A stretch of DNA of 39,155 nucleotides from Chitinophaga pinensis (GTDB lineage Bacteria; Bacteroidota; Bacteroidia; UKL13-3). The first letter of the stretch is position 1; every line of letters begins with the position of its first letter. Below are positions 1 through 12,008 of the stretch, one piece after another. The position numbers and the translations under genes are program-made. The notes under the pieces are model-generated. The model saw only the letters and a list, made by a program, of their open reading frames with translations. It was not told the DNA's origin and did no database searches. Where the stretch lies: contig CAMBSD010000021.1 in NCBI GenBank assembly GCA_945870425.1, positions 1-39,155 on the forward strand, in the 5' to 3' direction.

Positions 1-3000
1 ATGAATACACCTGATCCATCATTTACCGCGTTATCTCCAAATGATTGCGTTAATGCTGAACTGAAGTCAAACGATGTGTTTGAAGCATTAATCTGAACCG
101 GATTTGCACTTGATGTAGTGATAGAGTTACGATGTTTGATATAGATATAATAAGAATTACCTATAGCTCCACCAGGGAAGGTAACATTAGCTATTCCACT
201 AGTATTTAATAAAGCAGTAGCACTATAAGATATAACAGCGCTATTAGTTGGGTCGTGCAACTCAACAGTAATTGTATCTGCTATTGAGCTTGATGTAACA
301 CCATCAGCATTGAATGGAGAAGCTGTCATTGCTCCAGCTCCAGTATACAAACCTTGTAAATAAGCCGTTAAGTATATCGACACATTACTTACAGTAGTTT
401 CAGTTAATGATGATGAATTTGAAGAAGCTCCACAACCGTTAACAGCTCTAACTCTAAAGTAGTAGGTAGTTCCTGCTGATAATCCTGTAACAGATTGAGA
501 ATTACTACTAACACTTAAGTTATTATAACCAGAAACCATAGAAGTGAAATTTGAATTTGTAGCCACATCTAATTGGTATCCTGTTGCACCTGAAGTAGCG
601 TTCCAAGTTACATCAATTGAATTTGAAGTTGTACTAACAGTCGTAGGGGCATTGGTTGCAATTGGCAATGGGTTAGTTGATACCGCAACAGTTGTTGAAT
701 CCAAACATCCAAGTATGTTCATTACCACTTTGTAAGTAGTGTTAACAGTTGGATTAGCCACCTGAGGGTTAGTTGAACCAATTACCGAAGTACCATTTGA
801 CCAACTTAATGAATTAAACGCAGGACCAACAATACCTGAGAAGGTAACAAATGGTCTATTTGCATAAGTTGCAGTTCCAGTTGTGTTAGTACAAGCACCG
901 ATATTTGCTAATAAACTAACATTAGATACATTCGAAGGAGTTGTAGCTGCAACGGCAGATGATCCACCAAATGTAGAAACATTGTAGCAAATATTAATTA
1001 ATAGGTCTGAAGTACCATTCCAATTGTATGGTGTATTGAAGGTATGAACATTAGTTCCAAAAACAGGTTGGTATGTTGCAGCTGTATACACTTGTGTTAA
1101 AGTTGCGGCATCAAATGTAGTAGATAATGTAGATGAACTAGCGGTACCTAAGCTAATGGTATAATTGTTAGTTGAGCCTGTTCCAGCGGCTGTTACATCA
1201 AATGCAATCGCAGTAATGTCTCCCGAACCTAAACCTAAAGCATTTAGTTCAGCAGCTGTGAATACTAATTGATGTCTAAAGTCGCCTGTTCCTGCACCTG
1301 TGCGATAAACACTTCCACCGAACTCAGTTGTTGTTGCAGTACCAGAAGTAGTACCAGCATTACCGGCTAACAATGTTAAAGTTGTTGGGCTACCAGCACA
1401 AACTGTTGAAGGATTTGCTGACGCAGATCTTGTTAATCCATTATATGGATCAACTACATTGATGCTTACATTTGATGAAGTTACACAACCGGTAGAAGTC
1501 TCAACACCTGAAATAGTGTAAACATAATTACCAGCTGCTGACGGAGAAATAGTTAATGGAGTATTTAATGCCCCCGTTGTACTAGAACCCAAACCACTTC
1601 CTGCATAACTATTGGCTGTCCATGTTAAACTATAACTATTATTAGTCAACGCTTGGCTAACTGATAAATCTATAGTTGAATTTGCACAAACATTGGTAGT
1701 TTTGGTTGAACTAGCAACAATTGGGTTAGGTGTTGAAACAGTTATTAAAACAGGTATTCTTGCGCTTTCGCAGGTACCATTAGAAATAGAAACATAAAGC
1801 GTTGTTGTTGTTCCTACATAGTATGAACTTAAGGTGCTATTTGTTTCACCCTGTAAAGCAAATCCACCTATGATATCAGTGTACCAACGGTAATCTCCAT
1901 TGTTTGCACCTGAAGCAGAGCAAGTTGGAATTTGGTTACCACAATGTGCTGAAGGAGATGTAGTTGGATCACTAGGGATGGCAGTTGGATTAACCACAAC
2001 CATGGCAGTATCAGTACATCCCATTACATTCATGCTTACAGTGTAAGTAGTTGTAGCACTAGGGCTAACAAACACTGGGTTTGTTGTTCCTACATTGGTA
2101 GTTCCATCATTCCAAGTAAATGAAGCCGAACCTGTAATATTCATGGTATACTCTTCCCATTCTCCATAGAATATGGCTTGAGTTGGGCTAGTTAAAAGTG
2201 CTTCGGTAGTACCAATACGCATTCTAGTTGCGCCAATTTTTGCATTGGTAGGAACTGTGAACGAACCAGTTTCAGTATGTGCACCAGAAGTGGTTGTAGC
2301 CGAACTATATACCATTTCTCCCGCATCAGTGAAAACTCCATTGCGGTTGAAATCTATAAAGATACCGAAACCATGATTATATGCAAAACCTTGATCTGAT
2401 GAACTTATTGAGAAATTATAAGTCGAACCAGGTGTTATACCATAAGGTCCAAAGCTAGTAAAATCTGAAAAACCACCAGCAACACCAGTTGCAGTACCAA
2501 TGGTTCCAACTAATTCATTGTTTAAAGAAGAATTATCAAGAATGGTAGTTGCACCACTTGTAATGGTAATATTAGAAATATCCTCATCAGCAGTTGGAGA
2601 AGTAACAGCTGGTGGAGGTGTGTATGAAGGTGTGCCTGATAACAAGGCAGATGTAAATGTTAAGGTGGTTGGTGTATTTGCGCAGAATGTTGAAGGATTA
2701 ACTGTTATTGTTTTTCCTACGAATGGAGCAATTACGCTAACCGTTACTTGCGAACTTACCGAACATCCTGTTGAGGCTTCTGTTCCAGACACAGTGTACA
2801 CGTATGTACCAGTAGCAGCTGGGGTCAAAGTCAATGGGTTATTTAATGAAGTTCCTATTGAAGCAGTCAAACCGCTATTGATAGAATCTGATGAAGTCCA
2901 ATTTAACGAGTAGCTGTTGTTTGACGATGCTTGAGATACACTTATATCAAAAGAATTACCTAAACATGCAGCTTGAGCCACTGATGCTGATGCAATAATT

Positions 3001-6000
3001 GGGTCAGGAGTAGTTACAGTTAAGGTAACTGGCACACGGCCTGAATTATTCACACAGAATCCATTATAAGTTTCAACATAATACGTTTTAGTTGAAGTTA
3101 AATTTGGAGTAGTGTATGAAGCACCCCATGCAATTGGAGAACCACCAATTGAATCGTTATACCACTTAATGGTATCAGTTGCATTCAATGAAGCAGAATT
3201 CGATATTGTCAATAAAGCTGAACCTTGTCCACAAACTGTATTACCAGCTGTTATAGGATCCACAGGTTTTGCAATCGTAACGATATCAATGGTTGAAGGG
3301 CTAGCAGCATTCGAACAACCCGTAGTTAAGTTGGTTAATACCAAAGAAACAGAAGTGGTACCTACACTAGAAATATTAGTTGTAGCTTGGAATATGTTGG
3401 TTCCTGAGGTAGTTCCAGATAAAGAACCCGATGGAGACCAAACAGTGCTATAATTTGACGGAGGTGAAAATCTGTAAGCAACTGGAGTGGTTATAGCTGC
3501 AGTTGAAGCATAAGCCAGAGCGCCAATTGTACCATCTCCATTATTGATACCGCAAACTTTATTGTTTGTTGAAGCTGAATTTAATATATGTTCTTCAATG
3601 ACACCAGTAGTTTCATAAAAAATGGCTTGGGCAGTTGTTAAATTTCCTGTATTAGCATATTGAGGAGCTTGGAAATACTCTATAACAAATTTCCTATTTG
3701 GAGCTGTACCTTCTGTCCAATAACGAACTATACCTGCTGTTAAGTTATTATCATTGGCACATAATGCCAACATATTAAACGGTTCACCAGTACTTGGTAA
3801 AGTTGTGAATGTAAAATCACCCAAACCATATGGAGCAGTAAATCCTCCATTAGCATTGTATGTGCCAAACATCATTGTTCCATTTGTTCCAACATTAATG
3901 GTTGAATAAGGGGTACCAAAGAAATTGAAAGAAAATCCGATAGGAATAGAACTCCAACCACCATCATCTAAACCACCTGAAGCTAAAGCAACTGTTGCTG
4001 TTCCACCTGAACATAGGTTAGTAGCACTAACTGGAGCGGTTAAAGGAGAATAAGCTATCGTGCTAGATGAGAATGCACCTGCCACCAAACCAGTACCAAT
4101 AGTTACTGGAGTGCCTAAACAAACCGTATCGTTTGGTGTAGTTGTAAAATTAGGAGTTGGGAAATCATACACCCCTACAGTGATATCAGCATTTTGAGTA
4201 CAATTTCCGTCAGTTGCGGAAACTCTAAACAAGCTAGTAGCATTTAAATTAGCAGTAACCGGGTTACCTACATTTGAATTGAAACTTGCACCAGGACTGG
4301 TAGTTGACCAAGTATAGCTGGTAAAGTTTATATCTGAAGAAGTTGCAGTTAAATCATCCGTTTGAGCGCCTTGTCCGCAGAACCAAGGGGTAACTGCAGA
4401 AATAGTTAAAGCATTCACTTTTGAAATGATTTGTTGTCTTGGTGAAGATTCACAACCAGTCACCGTATCAATTTCAGTAACATATGAAGTATCAGTAGCT
4501 GTTAATGAAGTGCTATAAGTAGTTGAATACGAGTTTTGTTTTGTAGTGCCTGCTGTAGCTGCACTATACCATTTATACTTAGGTGCAGCGTAACCTGAAG
4601 TTGAAGCCACAGATGCAGTAGGCAAACCAGGACAAGAAACTGCACTGGTGGTAGAAGGAGCTGTAGGAGGTGTTGCCACGTTTAAAGTAATGCTTGGGCT
4701 AGGAGTAAAAGTACATCCTGCAGCAAAAATCGTTGCTGTATAGGTTGTAGTTGAACTTGCCGAAACAGTTACTGGATTTGAAGTAGAGAAGTTACTAGAA
4801 CCATCACTCCAAGAATAAGTTGGCAGTGTACTTGGTGTAAAAACAAACTTTGGTCTTGTAGTACCAGTGGTACCAGTAGTGTAAGCGGCCATAGCAGCCA
4901 TGGGTTGGTTATCTGCTTGGTTATATACTGAACATGTAAAACCAGGGTTATCAACTTGCATAGTTGTTGGAGTAGATGTACCAGCCAACGGATTGAGTGA
5001 CCAACTGATTGAAATTACCAAGTTAGAAACACCATCCCAAGTAAATGAACTGGCTGAACCTGTTCCTGTTCCGAATACCAAATTATTCACAACATTGGCA
5101 ACAGGTAATATACCTGAATTGGTAAGTGTACCTTCAAATACTTTAGTCAAACTTGCATTTGGCACATAGGTAGAAGTTGTTGTAGTTTGTGTTGTATGAC
5201 CAACCAACATTTGAAATCCTTGATAAGTTTGTCCTACAACTGTTGGCACATAACCAATTTGGGAAATACCACCTGCCAAAACACCCGCTGCAGATAATTC
5301 AGATGCTCTGATGATATATTGAGTTTTTGCGCCACCCCAGAAACCTGGGAAGAAAGATGCAGCCGTTGCACTTGAAGTACTAGCTCCAGCACCAACTGAA
5401 ACAACACCCCCTGTACCTGAATAATTCGCGGTTAGCGTTGCAGTAGATCCCGAACAAATAGTTGAAACTGAAGAAGTAACATTTGCCGAAGAACTAAACA
5501 ATGGCTCATCCTTATATGAAGTACCTGTAGCTGATTTTGTTAAACTGTTAGCATCAGTGGCAGTTACACTCCAAGTTACAGTTGCATTGGCAGGCGTAAC
5601 AGTTGGAATATCACCTGACCAGTCATTACCACTTGTATTGGTCATGGCAATAGCTGTTTGTGCAACACCATTCAGACTGTAGTTTAAGGCCACGCCAATT
5701 ACTGCTGCTCCACCAGGAGTGGCAGTAACTGTAACTGTTCTTAAAACATTTGTACAAGCATTACCTGTTGGGGTAATAGCCAATGCACTTAAGGTAGCAG
5801 CTGCTTTGTTACCCATACAATAAAATCCAACAATATTGGTAGCAGCAGGGGCTGTTGTTGTTAATGAAGTTGAAGTAGATGTTATAGAAACACCACCCAC
5901 TATATCATAAGCACCTGTTAAAGTGGCACTAGCTGCGATAGCATCAGCACCAGCAGGGGCATCATTCAATTTAATTAATGCATCAGTAAAATTGGCAGCA

Positions 6001-8714
6001 CCAGAAGTGATAGATGCAGCCCAATACCTGTTGGTATTTAATGTTCCCATTAAAGTACCAGCCGTACCACCTGCATTGGCATCAAATACCTCTGCCTGAA
6101 CAGTAACTGATCCGCCTGTGTTGGTGTTTGGATTTACCAATTCAAAAGCATTTAAAGATCCTTTACCCACAGGGAAAATATAATTTGAGGCTGTTGCGTA
6201 ATTTGCGGGAATACTTCTAGCAATGGCACCTTTAACATAAGATGTAGCTGAACCTCCAGAAATAGCTCCAACAGCGGTATTTGATAATGTCAAAACATAT
6301 CCGCTATTATCTAGGATACCAGCAGTAAGTGTCAACACACCTGCAGTTCCGTTTAATGTAGTTGAATATGGAATAGTAACCACATTGGCAGGAGAGGTTG
6401 AAGTATTGTTAATGGTTAATGAAGATGGCCCGCCTGTGGCAGGTAATTCAAAACTAGTAGCAGTTTGAGCGCCTGTTGAACCATTGTATGTTAAAACAGA
6501 AGTTGAACCATTATAAGAAATCGAGCCAGTACCCGAGATACCACCTCTAGTAATTATTACATTACGTGCAGAATATGCTGAGGTTAAATTTACACCTGCA
6601 GCATTATTCACTCTCAAATTAATAACATTGGTTCCATGAGAACCTGTAACTAAAGTTAAAGTAGATGCACTTGTTCCATTAAATTCTAAAGTACCGGTAG
6701 CAGATGTTTGAATAATTGAACCGCCAGTTTGAACAAAATTTCCAGAAACTCTTAAAAAAGAAGAACTACCTTGGGCGATATCAAATGTACCACCTGCGAT
6801 ATTTACATTACCTAAAACATTTAAAATACCTGTTGTACTGGCTACTTCAAAAGTTCCACCATTTACGTTTAAATTTCCGTTAATAGATATATTACCAGAA
6901 GTTAATGCTCTAAATCTACCCGTATTGGTAGCATTTATCGTCAAATTACCTTTAATAACAGCAACTGTTCCAGTAGTCCAAGCACTCATTGTAGCTGTTG
7001 CGCTAGCACAGTTGTAAGTAACATTACCAAATGACTGTGCATTATTTGTAAAGCCAGTTGCTGTAGTTATACTGTTAAAAGTTAGTGTAGATGTTGTAGC
7101 CCAAGTAGCCAATGGAACCGTTACACCAGTTGTTGCACCATTAACATTATAAGCCGAACCAGCTGCAAAAGACATAGTAGCCACAGAACCTGTGAAATAA
7201 CTTCCTGTTCCAACTGTACCATTATTAATAACACCTGTAGAACCAATAGTTACTAAAGTACCAGTACCGCCCGTAGAATTGAAAGTATTAGAAATACTTC
7301 CACCTAAATTGTAAGTACCAGAAATATCACCTGTATTACCTGTACCAGAGAATGCAAATGAAACGGCATTTGTGGTACTTGTGGTAGTTAAGGTACTTCC
7401 AGATTCAATAACAAAATCAGCTCCAGGGCAACCTGTAACTGTAATAGCTCTTGTAGTTGTAGCGCTAGAAACTAGAGATAAAGTAGTATTGCTAGTCACT
7501 TTAAATTGACCAATTGAAAAACTGGTAGCATCAACAGATATAGATACACTTCCACCAGGAGTGGTGCCTGCACCATCCACAATCATAACATCTGTAGTTG
7601 CTACAACAGATCTAGTGCTTCCTGTACCTGCAGGATCTGTATTCCAGTTAGCAGCTGTATTCCAAGTGCCACTTGTTGATCCTACCCAATAGTAAGTTGT
7701 TGGATTTACAGTAGCCTGAGTGGCAAGAGATGAGATTGCATTACCTTCTAGGTATGCTGCAACCCTGTAATAATAAGTAGTTCCGGGAGTTAAACCTGTT
7801 TGTGCAGAAGAATAAGTAGTTCCAGAACCTGCAACCGTTGTTGAAGTAATATTAGCTCCAATTTGAGTAAAGTTTACATTATCTGTAGAACGGAAAACCC
7901 TAAAACCAGTTTCGTCTGTTGAATTATCTGTCCAACCTAAAGTCATACTGGTGGTTGTAACAGCGGTTGTGGTTAAAGAAATAGGCGCTGACGTTGGAGC
8001 AGTGCCTTCACGTACCACCAAATTATCGATAAATACGTCAGAACTTCCGTAAGTTGCTGCCATTTGAAATCCAAACTTAGCATTTGCAACATTATATCCA
8101 GGAGGAATAGCTAAAACTCTTGTTGGCCACACACCTGATGTAGTAGTTGCAAGCGCACTGATGGTATTCCAAGTTAGCCCACCATCATTAGAACCTACAA
8201 ATGTGCATGCTGTTCCGCTGCCTGCATAGCTAAATGAAAACGATACAACAGGGCTAGTTGATGTACTTAAATCAATAGCTGGAGATTCTATTCTTCTGGT
8301 ATTACCAGTATAGGTATTTCCATCATAGAACCAAAGTACGTTTGAACCTTGAGGCGGTAAAGTTGGAGCACCACCATAAGGAGCACATCCGCTTGTACTA
8401 GTACCTGCGAAGTTAACAGCAGTATAGGAAGTACCCCATAACATTTGCCCCCAATCGTGCGGTGCGCCTGCGCACGCGCCTGGCACAACATTGTTAAGTA
8501 CCCTAGTTTGAGTCCAAGTACTAGGTGCATTAGGACCTGCTGCAGTAGCAGCAGTAGCAGAGTTTCCATTAAGGTACCAGGTACCTTCGAAACCCTCCGT
8601 AAAATAGGTTTGCGCTTTCAACGCATTCGTTCCAAGCAGTAGTAATAAAATTACTGTGGAAGCTAAGGTCCTGAACACTGTCAGTCCCCTTCGTTTTGTA
8701 ATTGTTTTTGTCAT
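1..8714 (-). CDS. Giant secreted multidomain adhesin-like protein, 3' end outside window
   Basis: One frame stays open from the ATG at 8714 to the left edge, giving at least 2904 residues with no stop. Residues 1-35 form a signal peptide ending near LKAQ. Then, approximately: a MAM/jelly-roll-like domain (40-240); FN3 (243-326); a YYWVG...WNTAANW module leading into Gly/Ser/Thr/Asn-rich beta-helix-like sequence (341-880); several Ig-like/PKD-like domains marked by CxGxxxTL and TTTYTV strands; a GEVED-like domain (2079-2188, ending YGEWEEYTMNI); a second FN3 (2691-2771); and a domain with YYIYIKHRNS (2774-2904) that in Bacteroidota usually comes shortly before the C-terminus. It is very rich in Thr/Ser/Gly and poor in Lys and Arg. 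Inference: a cell-surface or secreted T9SS client used in adhesion or matrix. The sorting domain is not visible, so the export route is inferred from the family. Ligand unknown. Confidence 0.9.
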   Translation of the reverse strand, partial: MTKTITKRRGLTVFRTLASTVILLLLLGTNALKAQTYFTEGFEGTWYLNGNSATAATAAGPNAPSTWTQTRVLNNVVPGACAGAPHDWGQMLWGTSYTAVNFAGTSTSGCAPYGGAPTLPPQGSNVLWFYDGNTYTGNTRRIESPAIDLSTSTSPVVSFSFSYAGSGTACTFVGSNDGGLTWNTISALATTTSGVWPTRVLAIPPGYNVANAKFGFQMAATYGSSDVFIDNLVVREGTAPTSAPISLTTTAVTTTSMTLGWTDNSTDETGFRVFRSTDNVNFTQIGANITSTTVAGSGTTYSSAQTGLTPGTTYYYRVAAYLEGNAISSLATQATVNPTTYYWVGSTSGTWNTAANWNTDPAGTGSTRSVVATTDVMIVDGAGTTPGGSVSISVDATSFSIGQFKVTSNTTLSLVSSATTTRAITVTGCPGADFVIESGSTLTTTSTTNAVSFAFSGTGNTGDISGTYNLGGSISNTFNSTGGTGTLVTIGSTGVINNGTVGTGSYFTGSVATMSFAAGSAYNVNGATTGVTVPLATWATTSTLTFNSITTATGFTNNAQSFGNVTYNCASATATMSAWTTGTVAVIKGNLTINATNTGRFRALTSGNISINGNLNVNGGTFEVASTTGILNVLGNVNIAGGTFDIAQGSSSFLRVSGNFVQTGGSIIQTSATGTLEFNGTSASTLTLVTGSHGTNVINLRVNNAAGVNLTSAYSARNVIITRGGISGTGSISYNGSTSVLTYNGSTGAQTATSFELPATGGPSSLTINNTSTSPANVVTIPYSTTLNGTAGVLTLTAGILDNSGYVLTLSNTAVGAISGGSATSYVKGAIARSIPANYATASNYIFPVGKGSLNAFELVNPNTNTGGSVTVQAEVFDANAGGTAGTLMGTLNTNRYWAASITSGAANFTDALIKLNDAPAGADAIAASATLTGAYDIVGGVSITSTSTSLTTTAPAATNIVGFYCMGNKAAATLSALAITPTGNACTNVLRTVTVTATPGGAAVIGVALNYSLNGVAQTAIAMTNTSGNDWSGDIPTVTPANATVTWSVTATDANSLTKSATGTSYKDEPLFSSSANVTSSVSTICSGSTATLTANYSGTGGVVSVGAGASTSSATAASFFPGFWGGAKTQYIIRASELSAAGVLAGGISQIGYVPTVVGQTYQGFQMLVGHTTQTTTTSTYVPNASLTKVFEGTLTNSGILPVANVVNNLVFGTGTGSASSFTWDGVSNLVISISWSLNPLAGTSTPTTMQVDNPGFTCSVYNQADNQPMAAMAAYTTGTTGTTRPKFVFTPSTLPTYSWSDGSSNFSTSNPVTVSASSTTTYTATIFAAGCTFTPSPSITLNVATPPTAPSTTSAVSCPGLPTASVASTSGYAAPKYKWYSAATAGTTKQNSYSTTYSTSLTATDTSYVTEIDTVTGCESSPRQQIISKVNALTISAVTPWFCGQGAQTDDLTATSSDINFTSYTWSTTSPGASFNSNVGNPVTANLNATSLFRVSATDGNCTQNADITVGVYDFPTPNFTTTPNDTVCLGTPVTIGTGLVAGAFSSSTIAYSPLTAPVSATNLCSGGTATVALASGGLDDGGWSSIPIGFSFNFFGTPYSTINVGTNGTMMFGTYNANGGFTAPYGLGDFTFTTLPSTGEPFNMLALCANDNNLTAGIVRYWTEGTAPNRKFVIEYFQAPQYANTGNLTTAQAIFYETTGVIEEHILNSASTNNKVCGINNGDGTIGALAYASTAAITTPVAYRFSPPSNYSTVWSPSGSLSGTTSGTNIFQATTNISSVGTTSVSLVLTNLTTGCSNAASPSTIDIVTIAKPVDPITAGNTVCGQGSALLTISNSASLNATDTIKWYNDSIGGSPIAWGASYTTPNLTSTKTYYVETYNGFCVNNSGRVPVTLTVTTPDPIIASASVAQAACLGNSFDISVSQASSNNSYSLNWTSSDSINSGLTASIGTSLNNPLTLTPAATGTYVYTVSGTEASTGCSVSSQVTVSVIAPFVGKTITVNPSTFCANTPTTLTFTSALLSGTPSYTPPPAVTSPTADEDISNITITSGATTILDNSSLNNELVGTIGTATGVAGGFSDFTSFGPYGITPGSTYNFSISSSDQGFAYNHGFGIFIDFNRNGVFTDAGEMVYSSATTTSGAHTETGSFTVPTNAKIGATRMRIGTTEALLTSPTQAIFYGEWEEYTMNITGSASFTWNDGTTNVGTTNPVFVSPSATTTYTVSMNVMGCTDTAMVVVNPTAIPSDPTTSPSAHCGNQIPTCSASGANNGDYRWYTDIIGGFALQGETNSTLSSYYVGTTTTLYVSISNGTCESARIPVLITVSTPNPIVASSTKTTNVCANSTIDLSVSQALTNNSYSLTWTANSYAGSGLGSSTTGALNTPLTISPSAAGNYVYTISGVETSTGCVTSSNVSINVVDPYNGLTRSASANPSTVCAGSPTTLTLLAGNAGTTSGTATTTEFGGSVYRTGAGTGDFRHQLVFTAAELNALGLGSGDITAIAFDVTAAGTGSTNNYTISLGTASSSTLSTTFDAATLTQVYTAATYQPVFGTNVHTFNTPYNWNGTSDLLINICYNVSTFGGSSAVAATTPSNVSNVSLLANIGACTNTTGTATYANRPFVTFSGIVGPAFNSLSWSNGTSVIGSTNPQVANPTVNTTYKVVMNILGCLDSTTVAVSTNPLPIATNAPTTVSTTSNSIDVTWNATSGATGYQLDVATNSNFTSMVSGYNNLSVSSNSQSVTGLSAGTTYYFRVRAVNGCGASSNSSSLTETTVSNVSIYLTAYLQGLYTGAGAMTASPFNADGVTSSSIADTITVELHDPTNSAVISYSATALLNTSGIANVTFPGGAIGNSYYIYIKHRNSITTSSANPVQINASNTSFDFSSALTQSFGDNAVNDGSGVF

Positions 8715-10415: not shown

Positions 10416-12008
10416 TTATTTAGACATTTGCTCGGCCATTAATACAGCTTGATAAGCATTTACAATGCCGCCTGTTTTGCATAGTGATTTAAGCTTTGCC
10501 TTTTTACGTTTACCAGGAATAAAAACTCTTTTATTATATTTTACTGATGATTTTAAAATAATATCTTTTAACTGCGATGCTGTTAATTGAGGATAATATG
10601 ACTTTAACAAAGCAGCAACACCCGCAGTAACTGGAGCTGCCATACTTGTACCGCTAAATGCTGCATATTTTGATTCAGGAATACACGAATTTATATCAAC
10701 CCCTGGAGCAAAAACATCTACCCTATCTTTACCGTAATTAGAAAAATCGGCAGTAAGGTGTTTTTTTAACTTCCAACTCGAGGCTCCTACTTCAATCCAA
10801 TTTGCAGCATTTCCACCACCATAAGCTTCCGCTTTAGGAAAATTATCTTCAATATCGGTATTCTTTGCATCATTTCCTGCAGCATGAATTAATAATACAT
10901 TCTTGGTAAGTGCATACTTAATAGCTTCGTCAACCACATTCTTATTTGAAGAAAATGATTTGCCAAAACTCATGTTTATGATTTGTGCTCCATTGTCAAC
11001 GGCATACCTAATAGCATTCGCCACATCTTTGTCTCTCTCGTCTCCATCAGGCACTGCCCTAATCACCATAATTTTTACATTATCGGCCACCCCATCAATT
11101 CCTTTTCCATTGTTGCGATTAGCCGCAATAATGCCGGCTACATGCGTACCGTGTTCTGCACTTGGACCCATAACACGATTACAGCCATATTTATTTTCAT
11201 ATACATCATTATAATTATCACCAACAACACTGCGAGAATCGAAATCTACATTATAACTGTAATCTACAAACTTGTTGACCTCATTCATTGACTCCTCTAT
11301 GCTTCCATATACTTTTGAAAATACAAAATAGTTTTTACCACTCCTTTTTAATCCATCTAAAATAGCATTTTTTGCCATTGCATCTGATTGTGAAGTAGGT
11401 TTGTAGGCATTTAATTCATCCTTAGTAAGCGAGTCCTTAGCAGTTGATTGCTGAATTAATTGCGCACCTGCTAATATGTTTTTAAACAAACCTTGATACA
11501 TAAAAAACTGACTGCTGCCCTGCTTATAAGCAGCTTTAATTTTCAAATAATACCTATATTCTTTTTCTTGTTCGGGGCTCACATATCCTTTGCTTGTATC
11601 AAGATCATCATATATTTTTTTATACTTAGCATACAATCGAGTTACCTCAAGGTTATCTTGATCTACATCGCCTTTTGCACCCCCAATAAAACTCCAGCCA
11701 TTTACATCATCAATATACCCATTATTATCATCGTCCAAACCATTTTGTTTCTCATTAGGATTTATCCAAATGACAGATTGTAAATCTTCGTGATTCACTT
11801 CAGTACCACCATCAATAACAGCTACAACAACTGGAGTTGACTTCTTACCTTTAAGCAATTCCCTGTATGTTTTTTCAGTACTCACACCATACACCTTATC
11901 ATCACTTGGGTCCAAGTTAAACCAATTTTTAGGCGCTTCTTTTTGCGCAATAATTTGAATTGAAAATAGCAATGAAAAGCTACTAAAAAATAAAATCTTT
12001 TTAATCAT
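10416..12008 (-). CDS. Secreted subtilisin-like serine protease (S8 family)
   Basis: 530 residues with a signal peptide (1-21, ending IIAQ). The peptidase S8 triad is intact: Asp66 in VVAVIDGGTE, His286 in AEHGTHVAGI, Ser455 in FSGTSMAAP, with the oxyanion Asn379 in AAGND. It should hydrolyse peptide bonds outside the cytoplasm. About 220 residues separate the catalytic Asp and His, against roughly 30-40 in classical subtilisins. The insert (about 105-280) is charged and alpha-helical in character (EQEKEYRYYLKIKAAY). The protein ends soon after the catalytic domain with a basic stretch (PGKRKKAKLK) and no recognisable T9SS sorting domain. No separate inhibitor-like propeptide is visible before Asp66. 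Substrate unknown. Confidence 0.93.
   Translation of the reverse strand: MIKKILFFSSFSLLFSIQIIAQKEAPKNWFNLDPSDDKVYGVSTEKTYRELLKGKKSTPVVVAVIDGGTEVNHEDLQSVIWINPNEKQNGLDDDNNGYIDDVNGWSFIGGAKGDVDQDNLEVTRLYAKYKKIYDDLDTSKGYVSPEQEKEYRYYLKIKAAYKQGSSQFFMYQGLFKNILAGAQLIQQSTAKDSLTKDELNAYKPTSQSDAMAKNAILDGLKRSGKNYFVFSKVYGSIEESMNEVNKFVDYSYNVDFDSRSVVGDNYNDVYENKYGCNRVMGPSAEHGTHVAGIIAANRNNGKGIDGVADNVKIMVIRAVPDGDERDKDVANAIRYAVDNGAQIINMSFGKSFSSNKNVVDEAIKYALTKNVLLIHAAGNDAKNTDIEDNFPKAEAYGGGNAANWIEVGASSWKLKKHLTADFSNYGKDRVDVFAPGVDINSCIPESKYAAFSGTSMAAPVTAGVAALLKSYYPQLTASQLKDIILKSSVKYNKRVFIPGKRKKAKLKSLCKTGGIVNAYQAVLMAEQMSK

Follow-up and report, generated by a model that had tools for sequence, protein, structure and literature searches.

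We analysed a window of 39,155 nucleotides that is an entire contig (CAMBSD010000021.1) of a Bacteroidota genome deposited as Chitinophaga pinensis (GCA_945870425.1; 2.96 Mb in 43 contigs), and found that a giant open reading frame (ORF) in it carries four immunoglobulin (Ig)-like units, each interrupted by an inserted module. Each unit is probably a split Ig-like host domain (CHU_C/Ig_7/PKD-like) that displays its module in a rod-like adhesin. The bases for this reading are the nesting in a structure model of unit 1, a weaker model of unit 3, a single insertion site, several insert families at that site, and a difference in slot content between orthologs.

The ORF has a signal-peptide-like N-terminus, fn3, a beta-rich region, and then the four interrupted units, which span window positions 678-5492 (amino acids (aa) 1075-1348, 1524-1814, 2002-2243, and 2430-2679). 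Successive units are separated by an Ig_7 domain plus a host copy without an insert, giving a repeat period of about 430-480 aa. The features are listed below; EMPTY2 is the profile used to score uninterrupted host copies.

3..8714, minus strand: giant secreted/surface protein ORF, 2904 aa, with its 3′ end past the contig
5415..5492, minus strand: unit 1 host opening strands, aa 1075-1100; AlphaFold2 residues 6-31 align with the 9flw/9flv Ig domain
4824..5414, minus strand: unit 1 inserted module, KTQYII/RHQL type, aa 1101-1297; model 32..228 aligns separately
4671..4823, minus strand: unit 1 host closing strands, aa 1298-1348; Ig alignment shared with the opening, to model residue 279, and sequence profile
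4419..4667, minus strand: Ig_7-type domain 3′ of unit 1, aa 1350-1432; PF19081 (three stretches) and lineage profile
4170..4382, minus strand: uninterrupted host-like Ig copy preceding unit 2, aa 1445-1515; EMPTY2 16 bits
4059..4145, minus strand: unit 2 host opening, aa 1524-1552; sequence motif and weak profile match
3468..4058, minus strand: unit 2 inserted module, NFFG type, NIDO-like, aa 1553-1749; profile of orthologs
3273..3467, minus strand: unit 2 host closing with a variant motif, aa 1750-1814; profile 7.9 bits, versus 16.0 in the ortholog
3012..3266, minus strand: Ig_7 domain 3′ of unit 2, aa 1817-1901; best PF19081 stretch
2724..2990, minus strand: uninterrupted host copy e3, aa 1909-1997; EMPTY2 37 bits
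2616..2711, minus strand: unit 3 host opening, aa 2002-2033; lineage host profile, model range from residue 3
2133..2615, minus strand: unit 3 inserted GEVED module, aa 2034-2194; PF20009 57.3 bits, separate model alignment 45..203
1986..2132, minus strand: unit 3 host closing, aa 2195-2243; host profile E 1.1e-18
1737..1976, minus strand: Ig_7 domain 3′ of unit 3, aa 2247-2326
1443..1715, minus strand: uninterrupted host copy e4, aa 2334-2424; EMPTY2 30 bits
1338..1427, minus strand: unit 4 host opening, aa 2430-2459; host profile E 5.4e-6
837..1337, minus strand: unit 4 inserted RHQL module, aa 2460-2626; profile 237 bits, and relatives
678..836, minus strand: unit 4 host closing, aa 2627-2679; host profile E 1.7e-18
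402..635, minus strand: fn3 domain directly 3′ of unit 4, aa 2694-2771; PF00041

The starting point was an earlier sequence-only reading of this DNA, which had described four Ig-like openings, each followed by a separate module and then by closing strands. The openings lie where it had placed them (STICSGSTATLTA at aa 1084, DTVCLGTPVTI at 1529, STFCANTPTTLTF at 2008, and STVCAGSPTTLTL at 2436), and the closing strands return after the modules at aa 1300, 1755, 2193, and 2636. The closing motif that it gave for all four units was recovered with small changes (W-S/N-D/N-G, STNP, TTTY, GC) in units 1, 3, and 4, while unit 2 has the variant VWSPSGSLSGTTSGTN...TTGC, which lacks STNP and TTTYT. Two of its statements on the inserts also held: the third is a GEVED domain (PF20009, 57.3 bits against a cut-off of 24.4), and inserts 1 and 4 are related, with 28% identity across the whole units.

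To model the fold, AlphaFold2 was run on aa 1070-1820 (12 sequences), which gave a good model of unit 1 (blocks mostly 70-90) and a poor one past it. In structural alignments of unit 1, 75-76 residues of one contiguous Ig domain of 76-81 residues aligned to model residues 6..279 with a root-mean-square deviation (rmsd) of 1.9-2.0 Å. The partners were Ig domains of GhpA (9flw 3831-3911 and 9flv 2563-2642) and also FcgammaRIIa. Such a range can be covered only if the opening (6-31) and closing (229-279) strands combine and the insert of about 200 residues is skipped. The model places strands at 7-12, 16-18, and 23-30 N-terminal to the insert. Unit 1 thus bears out the prediction that the opening and closing strands form one Ig fold with the insert looped out, and the contrary outcome named beforehand, with the two halves in separate complete domains, did not appear for this unit. 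Insert 1 alone (model 32..228) aligned over 149-154 residues at about 3 Å to the carbohydrate-binding module (CBM)-like domain of the esterase PbeAcXE, to phage receptor-binding domains, and to the lectin-like domain of Cwp84; the match to the N-terminal CBM-like domain of PbeAcXE had a Z of 11.1 over 152 residues (rmsd 3.0, 7% identity), and Foldseek added the CBM of FjoAcXE. For unit 3, a model of aa 1995-2428 (7 sequences; mean predicted local distance difference test score (pLDDT) 72) aligned from residue 3 to 430 with three consecutive GhpA Ig domains, a stretch of 262 residues, over 236 residues at 4.3 Å. Because just 183 residues follow unit 3, at least 53 of the aligned residues belong to the unit, beginning with its opening strand. 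Its GEVED insert (model 45..203) aligned separately to RhoGDI-type beta-sandwiches.

If the units were instead beads on a string, the halves would belong to separate complete domains or linkers and the inserts would be ordinary tandem domains. Modules of the same families do stand free at N-termini and elsewhere, as this arrangement would have it; we nevertheless regard it as highly improbable, given that the alignment of a single Ig domain takes in the opening and closing segments of unit 1 and passes over the insert, that these two halves are frequently found joined without interruption, and that the cysteines of both halves are conserved. The last two points come from a profile analysis. 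An insert-free host profile matched uninterrupted domains of 60-80 aa over the junction (e.g., G035:C1, positions 2-77, E 4e-9). A broad host profile trained on 330 uninterrupted copies was then cut at the B-C turn into two half profiles, which were run on 445 related ORFs (447,142 aa), a set that is not unbiased because it was chosen mainly through inserts 1 and 4. The opening half was hit 260 times and the closing half 699 times, compared with 2 and 0 times when the sequences were reversed. Distances between an opening hit and the closing hit that follows it were bimodal: 176 measured -10 to 9 aa and 58 measured 80-370 aa, peaking at 180-210 aa, with a lone case of 30-39 aa in between. This sets 176 uninterrupted copies against about 54 interrupted ones. 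Calls of loaded copies that we judged false were left out (L179, L190, and L200 with a gap of 249; L199; and L196 with a gap of 82, which is still counted in the cysteine, empty-copy, and Ig_7-neighbour tallies), and the gaps of about 100 aa in L139 and L149 end within the module. All 20 strictly paired splits fell at profile positions 20-34, the B-C site, and no single profile hit in the set contained a long insertion elsewhere in the host. The cysteines of both halves were kept in 51 of 53 interrupted copies, and every protein with an interrupted host (24/24) also carried an uninterrupted one; in 17 of the 53, an Ig_7 domain and then an uninterrupted copy come next.

The sequence-only reading had also proposed searching for the same host with other inserts, and this search found several unrelated insert families at the host site: RHQL/KTQYII (38 in the set), NFFG/NIDO-like, GEVED (Pfam E 4e-20), Reelin_subrepeat-B (4.7e-17), MAM/Reelin-like, lamin-tail (LTD, 6.7e-13), and GWNGA (about 104 aa). 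Elsewhere in the window's genome, reading by eye showed a further module placed in an Ig-like host of this type. NIDO (PF06119) did not match the window's insert 2, and a relative's insert scored just under its cut-off (4.7e-5; 23.9 bits against 25). Across 149 genomes of the class, the opening, module, and closing occurred together in 49 of the 150 best matches (26 genomes) and the module by itself in 44 (33 genomes); some match was present in 112 of the 149 genomes. GEVED domains of the window's subtype also nest in a second Ig-like host with adjoining empty copies (L092) and in a beta-solenoid-like region (L066-L068). In the latter case, the domains are 46-47% identical to the window's GEVED and belong to proteins of up to 8746 aa with a beta-solenoid-like repeat region. 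L092 and L093, at the ends of contigs G000:C11 and G000:C4 of the window's genome, have about 50 identical residues in common within a GEVED unit and are one giant protein broken by assembly. In this protein, the second Ig-like host (NITHxTTGATGI|GLPAGVTAAW...) is found in two empty copies and two that carry GEVED. The same units also occur in a Bacteroidota-type protein with an apparent type IX secretion tail in a record named Glaciecola amylolytica (L134; CP034120.1, Gammaproteobacteria), so that either the record is mislabelled or the protein was transferred. No relatives were found in viral contigs in three scans.

These data bear on whether the units are not cassettes but one enlarged Ig family, whose long ancestral loop was inherited vertically with the host. 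Units 1 and 2 are vertically conserved with the same insert in four relatives, and in the ortholog of genome G036 they carry the same modules, 90% and 68% identical to the window's inserts, as vertical inheritance would predict. Against this stand the unrelated inserts at one site and a host similarity that is independent of insert class (median host identity 0.37 within the same class versus 0.35 between classes); in L196, hosts that are 54-60% identical hold three unrelated modules. The modules also stand alone, and GEVED is nested in two unrelated hosts. Moreover, one orthologous slot differs in content: slot 3 holds an RHQL module in G036 (64% identical to the window's insert 4), versus GEVED in the window and in three genomes of genus g4. 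On either side of slot 3 in G036, the neighbouring domains agree with their positional counterparts (Ig before it 50 vs 37%, Ig_7 after it 68 vs 34%), and in a tree of uninterrupted Ig copies the e4 copies of the window and G036 lie apart from the e3 copies (91/95) with moderate support. We consider an enlarged ancestral Ig family very unlikely. Judged from sequence comparison, the exchange is visible evolutionarily rather than mechanistically, and its breakpoints may lie at either module or host edges. The proposal of a nested cassette, with one scaffold and interchangeable modules, thus stood for unit 1 and for exchange in evolution, because of the uninterrupted host copies, the unrelated inserts at one site, and the changed module in an orthologous slot; the weaker model of unit 3 agrees with it.

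Several observations weigh against split hosts displaying exchangeable modules. The broad opening-half profile misses the window's own units, which were found with a profile partly built from them. The unit 3 host is modelled at moderate confidence, with the rmsd of 4.3 Å given above. Unit 2, whose host halves are the most divergent, has a model with pLDDT below 50; NFFG or mixed fragments that were misaligned to the wrong unit in the structure alignments were dropped, so this model was built from three sequences and is poor. The strand packing was read off alignment ranges rather than contacts, and the nesting of unit 4 would follow by homology to unit 1. The host halves of slot 3 show no clear agreement with position (closing 49 vs 46%, opening closer to others), and the swap may therefore have carried host strands. 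Finally, no ligand or binding-site residue was identified, a point that also favours modules that are nested but structural, serving spacing, stiffness, or protease shielding rather than ligand binding. The RHQL and NFFG inserts have no Pfam match that gives a function, which fits such a role, whereas the fit of insert 1 to CBM and phage receptor-binding folds and the greater variation of the modules than of the frame speak against it. Families such as GEVED, Reelin/MAM, and NIDO-like are, moreover, characteristic of adhesive proteins, which likewise counts against a structural role. On balance, we judge a purely structural role unlikely.

Under the split-host model that we favour, the chain would first form strands A-B, a stretch of about 25-30 residues that includes a conserved cysteine, and exit at the B-C turn, where an independent beta-sandwich module of 160-200 residues would fold. 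It would then return for the remaining strands, about 50 residues, whose final conserved cysteine could pair with the first; we infer a disulphide between the host halves. Both module ends would emerge at one point of the host and leave the far side free, as in RTX adhesins; anchored through both ends to one flank of the Ig rod, the module would project sideways. The uninterrupted host copies and Ig_7 domains would be spacers between loaded copies in a stiff Ig rod. Since the site takes unrelated modules and its content changes while the frame stays, the whole would be a rod-like adhesin with several binding modules. Fold and family suggest that the modules bind ligands, and for inserts 1 and 4, of the RHQL type, the modelled fold makes carbohydrates the likely ligands.

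The principle of split domains is already known. FrhA of Vibrio cholerae, MpIBP, and AhLap of Aeromonas hydrophila are RTX adhesins with split Ig-like domains, and ligand-binding domains of RTX adhesins have been recognised through their emergence from split domains (PMC10865825, PMC12077191). As in those proteins, a module buds out of a discontinuous Ig-like domain, and several different modules per giant adhesin are separated by ordinary Ig extenders. In FrhA, however, just one strand, of about 12 residues, makes up the first part (PMC10865825), whereas here it comprises 25-30 residues and two to three strands, so none of the giant ORF's units has the short single-strand first part that strictly marks the RTX split Ig. 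The host, the modules, and the phylum also differ, and here many loaded copies alternate with Ig_7 and uninterrupted copies. No RTX family matched the giant ORF in Pfam, its C-terminus falling beyond the contig. The nearest Pfam families of the uninterrupted host are Ig_7 (PF19081, 'Ig-like domain CHU_C associated') and PKD_4 (PF18911), with scores of 15.3 and 23.0 bits (cut-off 27.3) and 24.8 bits (cut-off 27), respectively. Ig_7 domains proper, which alternate with the loaded units, pass the PF19081 cut-off, and neither model covers the interrupted form. GEVED (PF20009) is known as a partner of CshA NR2 in fibrillar adhesins, where it follows NR2 in tandem and domain shuffling has been reported (PMC10952558); here, by contrast, an Ig host encloses it, and NR2 was not seen. 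GhpA, the grappling hook protein of Aureispira (9flx, 9flv, 9flw, and others), provides the closest solved Ig domains and is likewise a giant Bacteroidota surface protein with tandem Ig domains, but its aligned Ig domains are uninterrupted. The esterase CBMs of FjoAcXE and PbeAcXE (7tok, 7tog) have the fold of insert 1, and no Ig host was seen around them. Searching PDB sequences with profiles of units 1/4, 3, and 2 and of the spliced host gave chance-level hits only, and no solved chain matched the NFFG, RHQL, or GEVED module profiles. Our literature search joining split Ig-like domains with Bacteroidota found no description of this host, the B-C site, the alternation with uninterrupted copies, or the breadth of modules; the main survey (Graham et al. 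2024, Proteins 92:933), which may mention cases, lay outside that search.

In the genomic setting, PF18962, the type IX secretion tail family, had 90 matches in the window's genome, the majority above the cut-off. The C-terminal 192 aa of the ortholog had no Pfam match and no known sorting domain. The C-terminus of this ortholog (L083) and aa 320-504 of a paralog (L093) have a C-terminal region in common, with SGDINQDGxID..ND..D repeats at its end, without a type IX tail or a Pfam match; it is possibly another sorting or anchoring signal. A subtilase-family peptidase gene (PF00082; window 10416-12008, minus strand) lies upstream of the giant gene. Two plus-strand open frames antisense to the giant gene (window 2500-2913, 137 aa; 3112-3453, 113 aa) are probably due to chance.

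Because standard domain annotation misses interrupted Ig domains, the display logic of giant Bacteroidota surface proteins is largely invisible. In the giant ORF, Pfam matches above or close to the cut-off were confined to three Ig_7 stretches, a single GEVED, and fn3-type domains, thus marking just the spacers and the GEVED core, and an NCBIfam search gave no match. More tentatively, a single Ig socket at the B-C turn might serve as a plug-in throughout Bacteroidota, taking at least six unrelated modules, with recombination on short time scales re-targeting adhesins while the rod stays undisturbed; we regard this as possible but doubtful. A two-half profile offers a simple finder of candidate binding modules, namely the sequence between the halves. 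With its different host, the finding carries the split-domain rule of RTX adhesins over to a further phylum; it also provides an insertion site for domain display that nature has used repeatedly.

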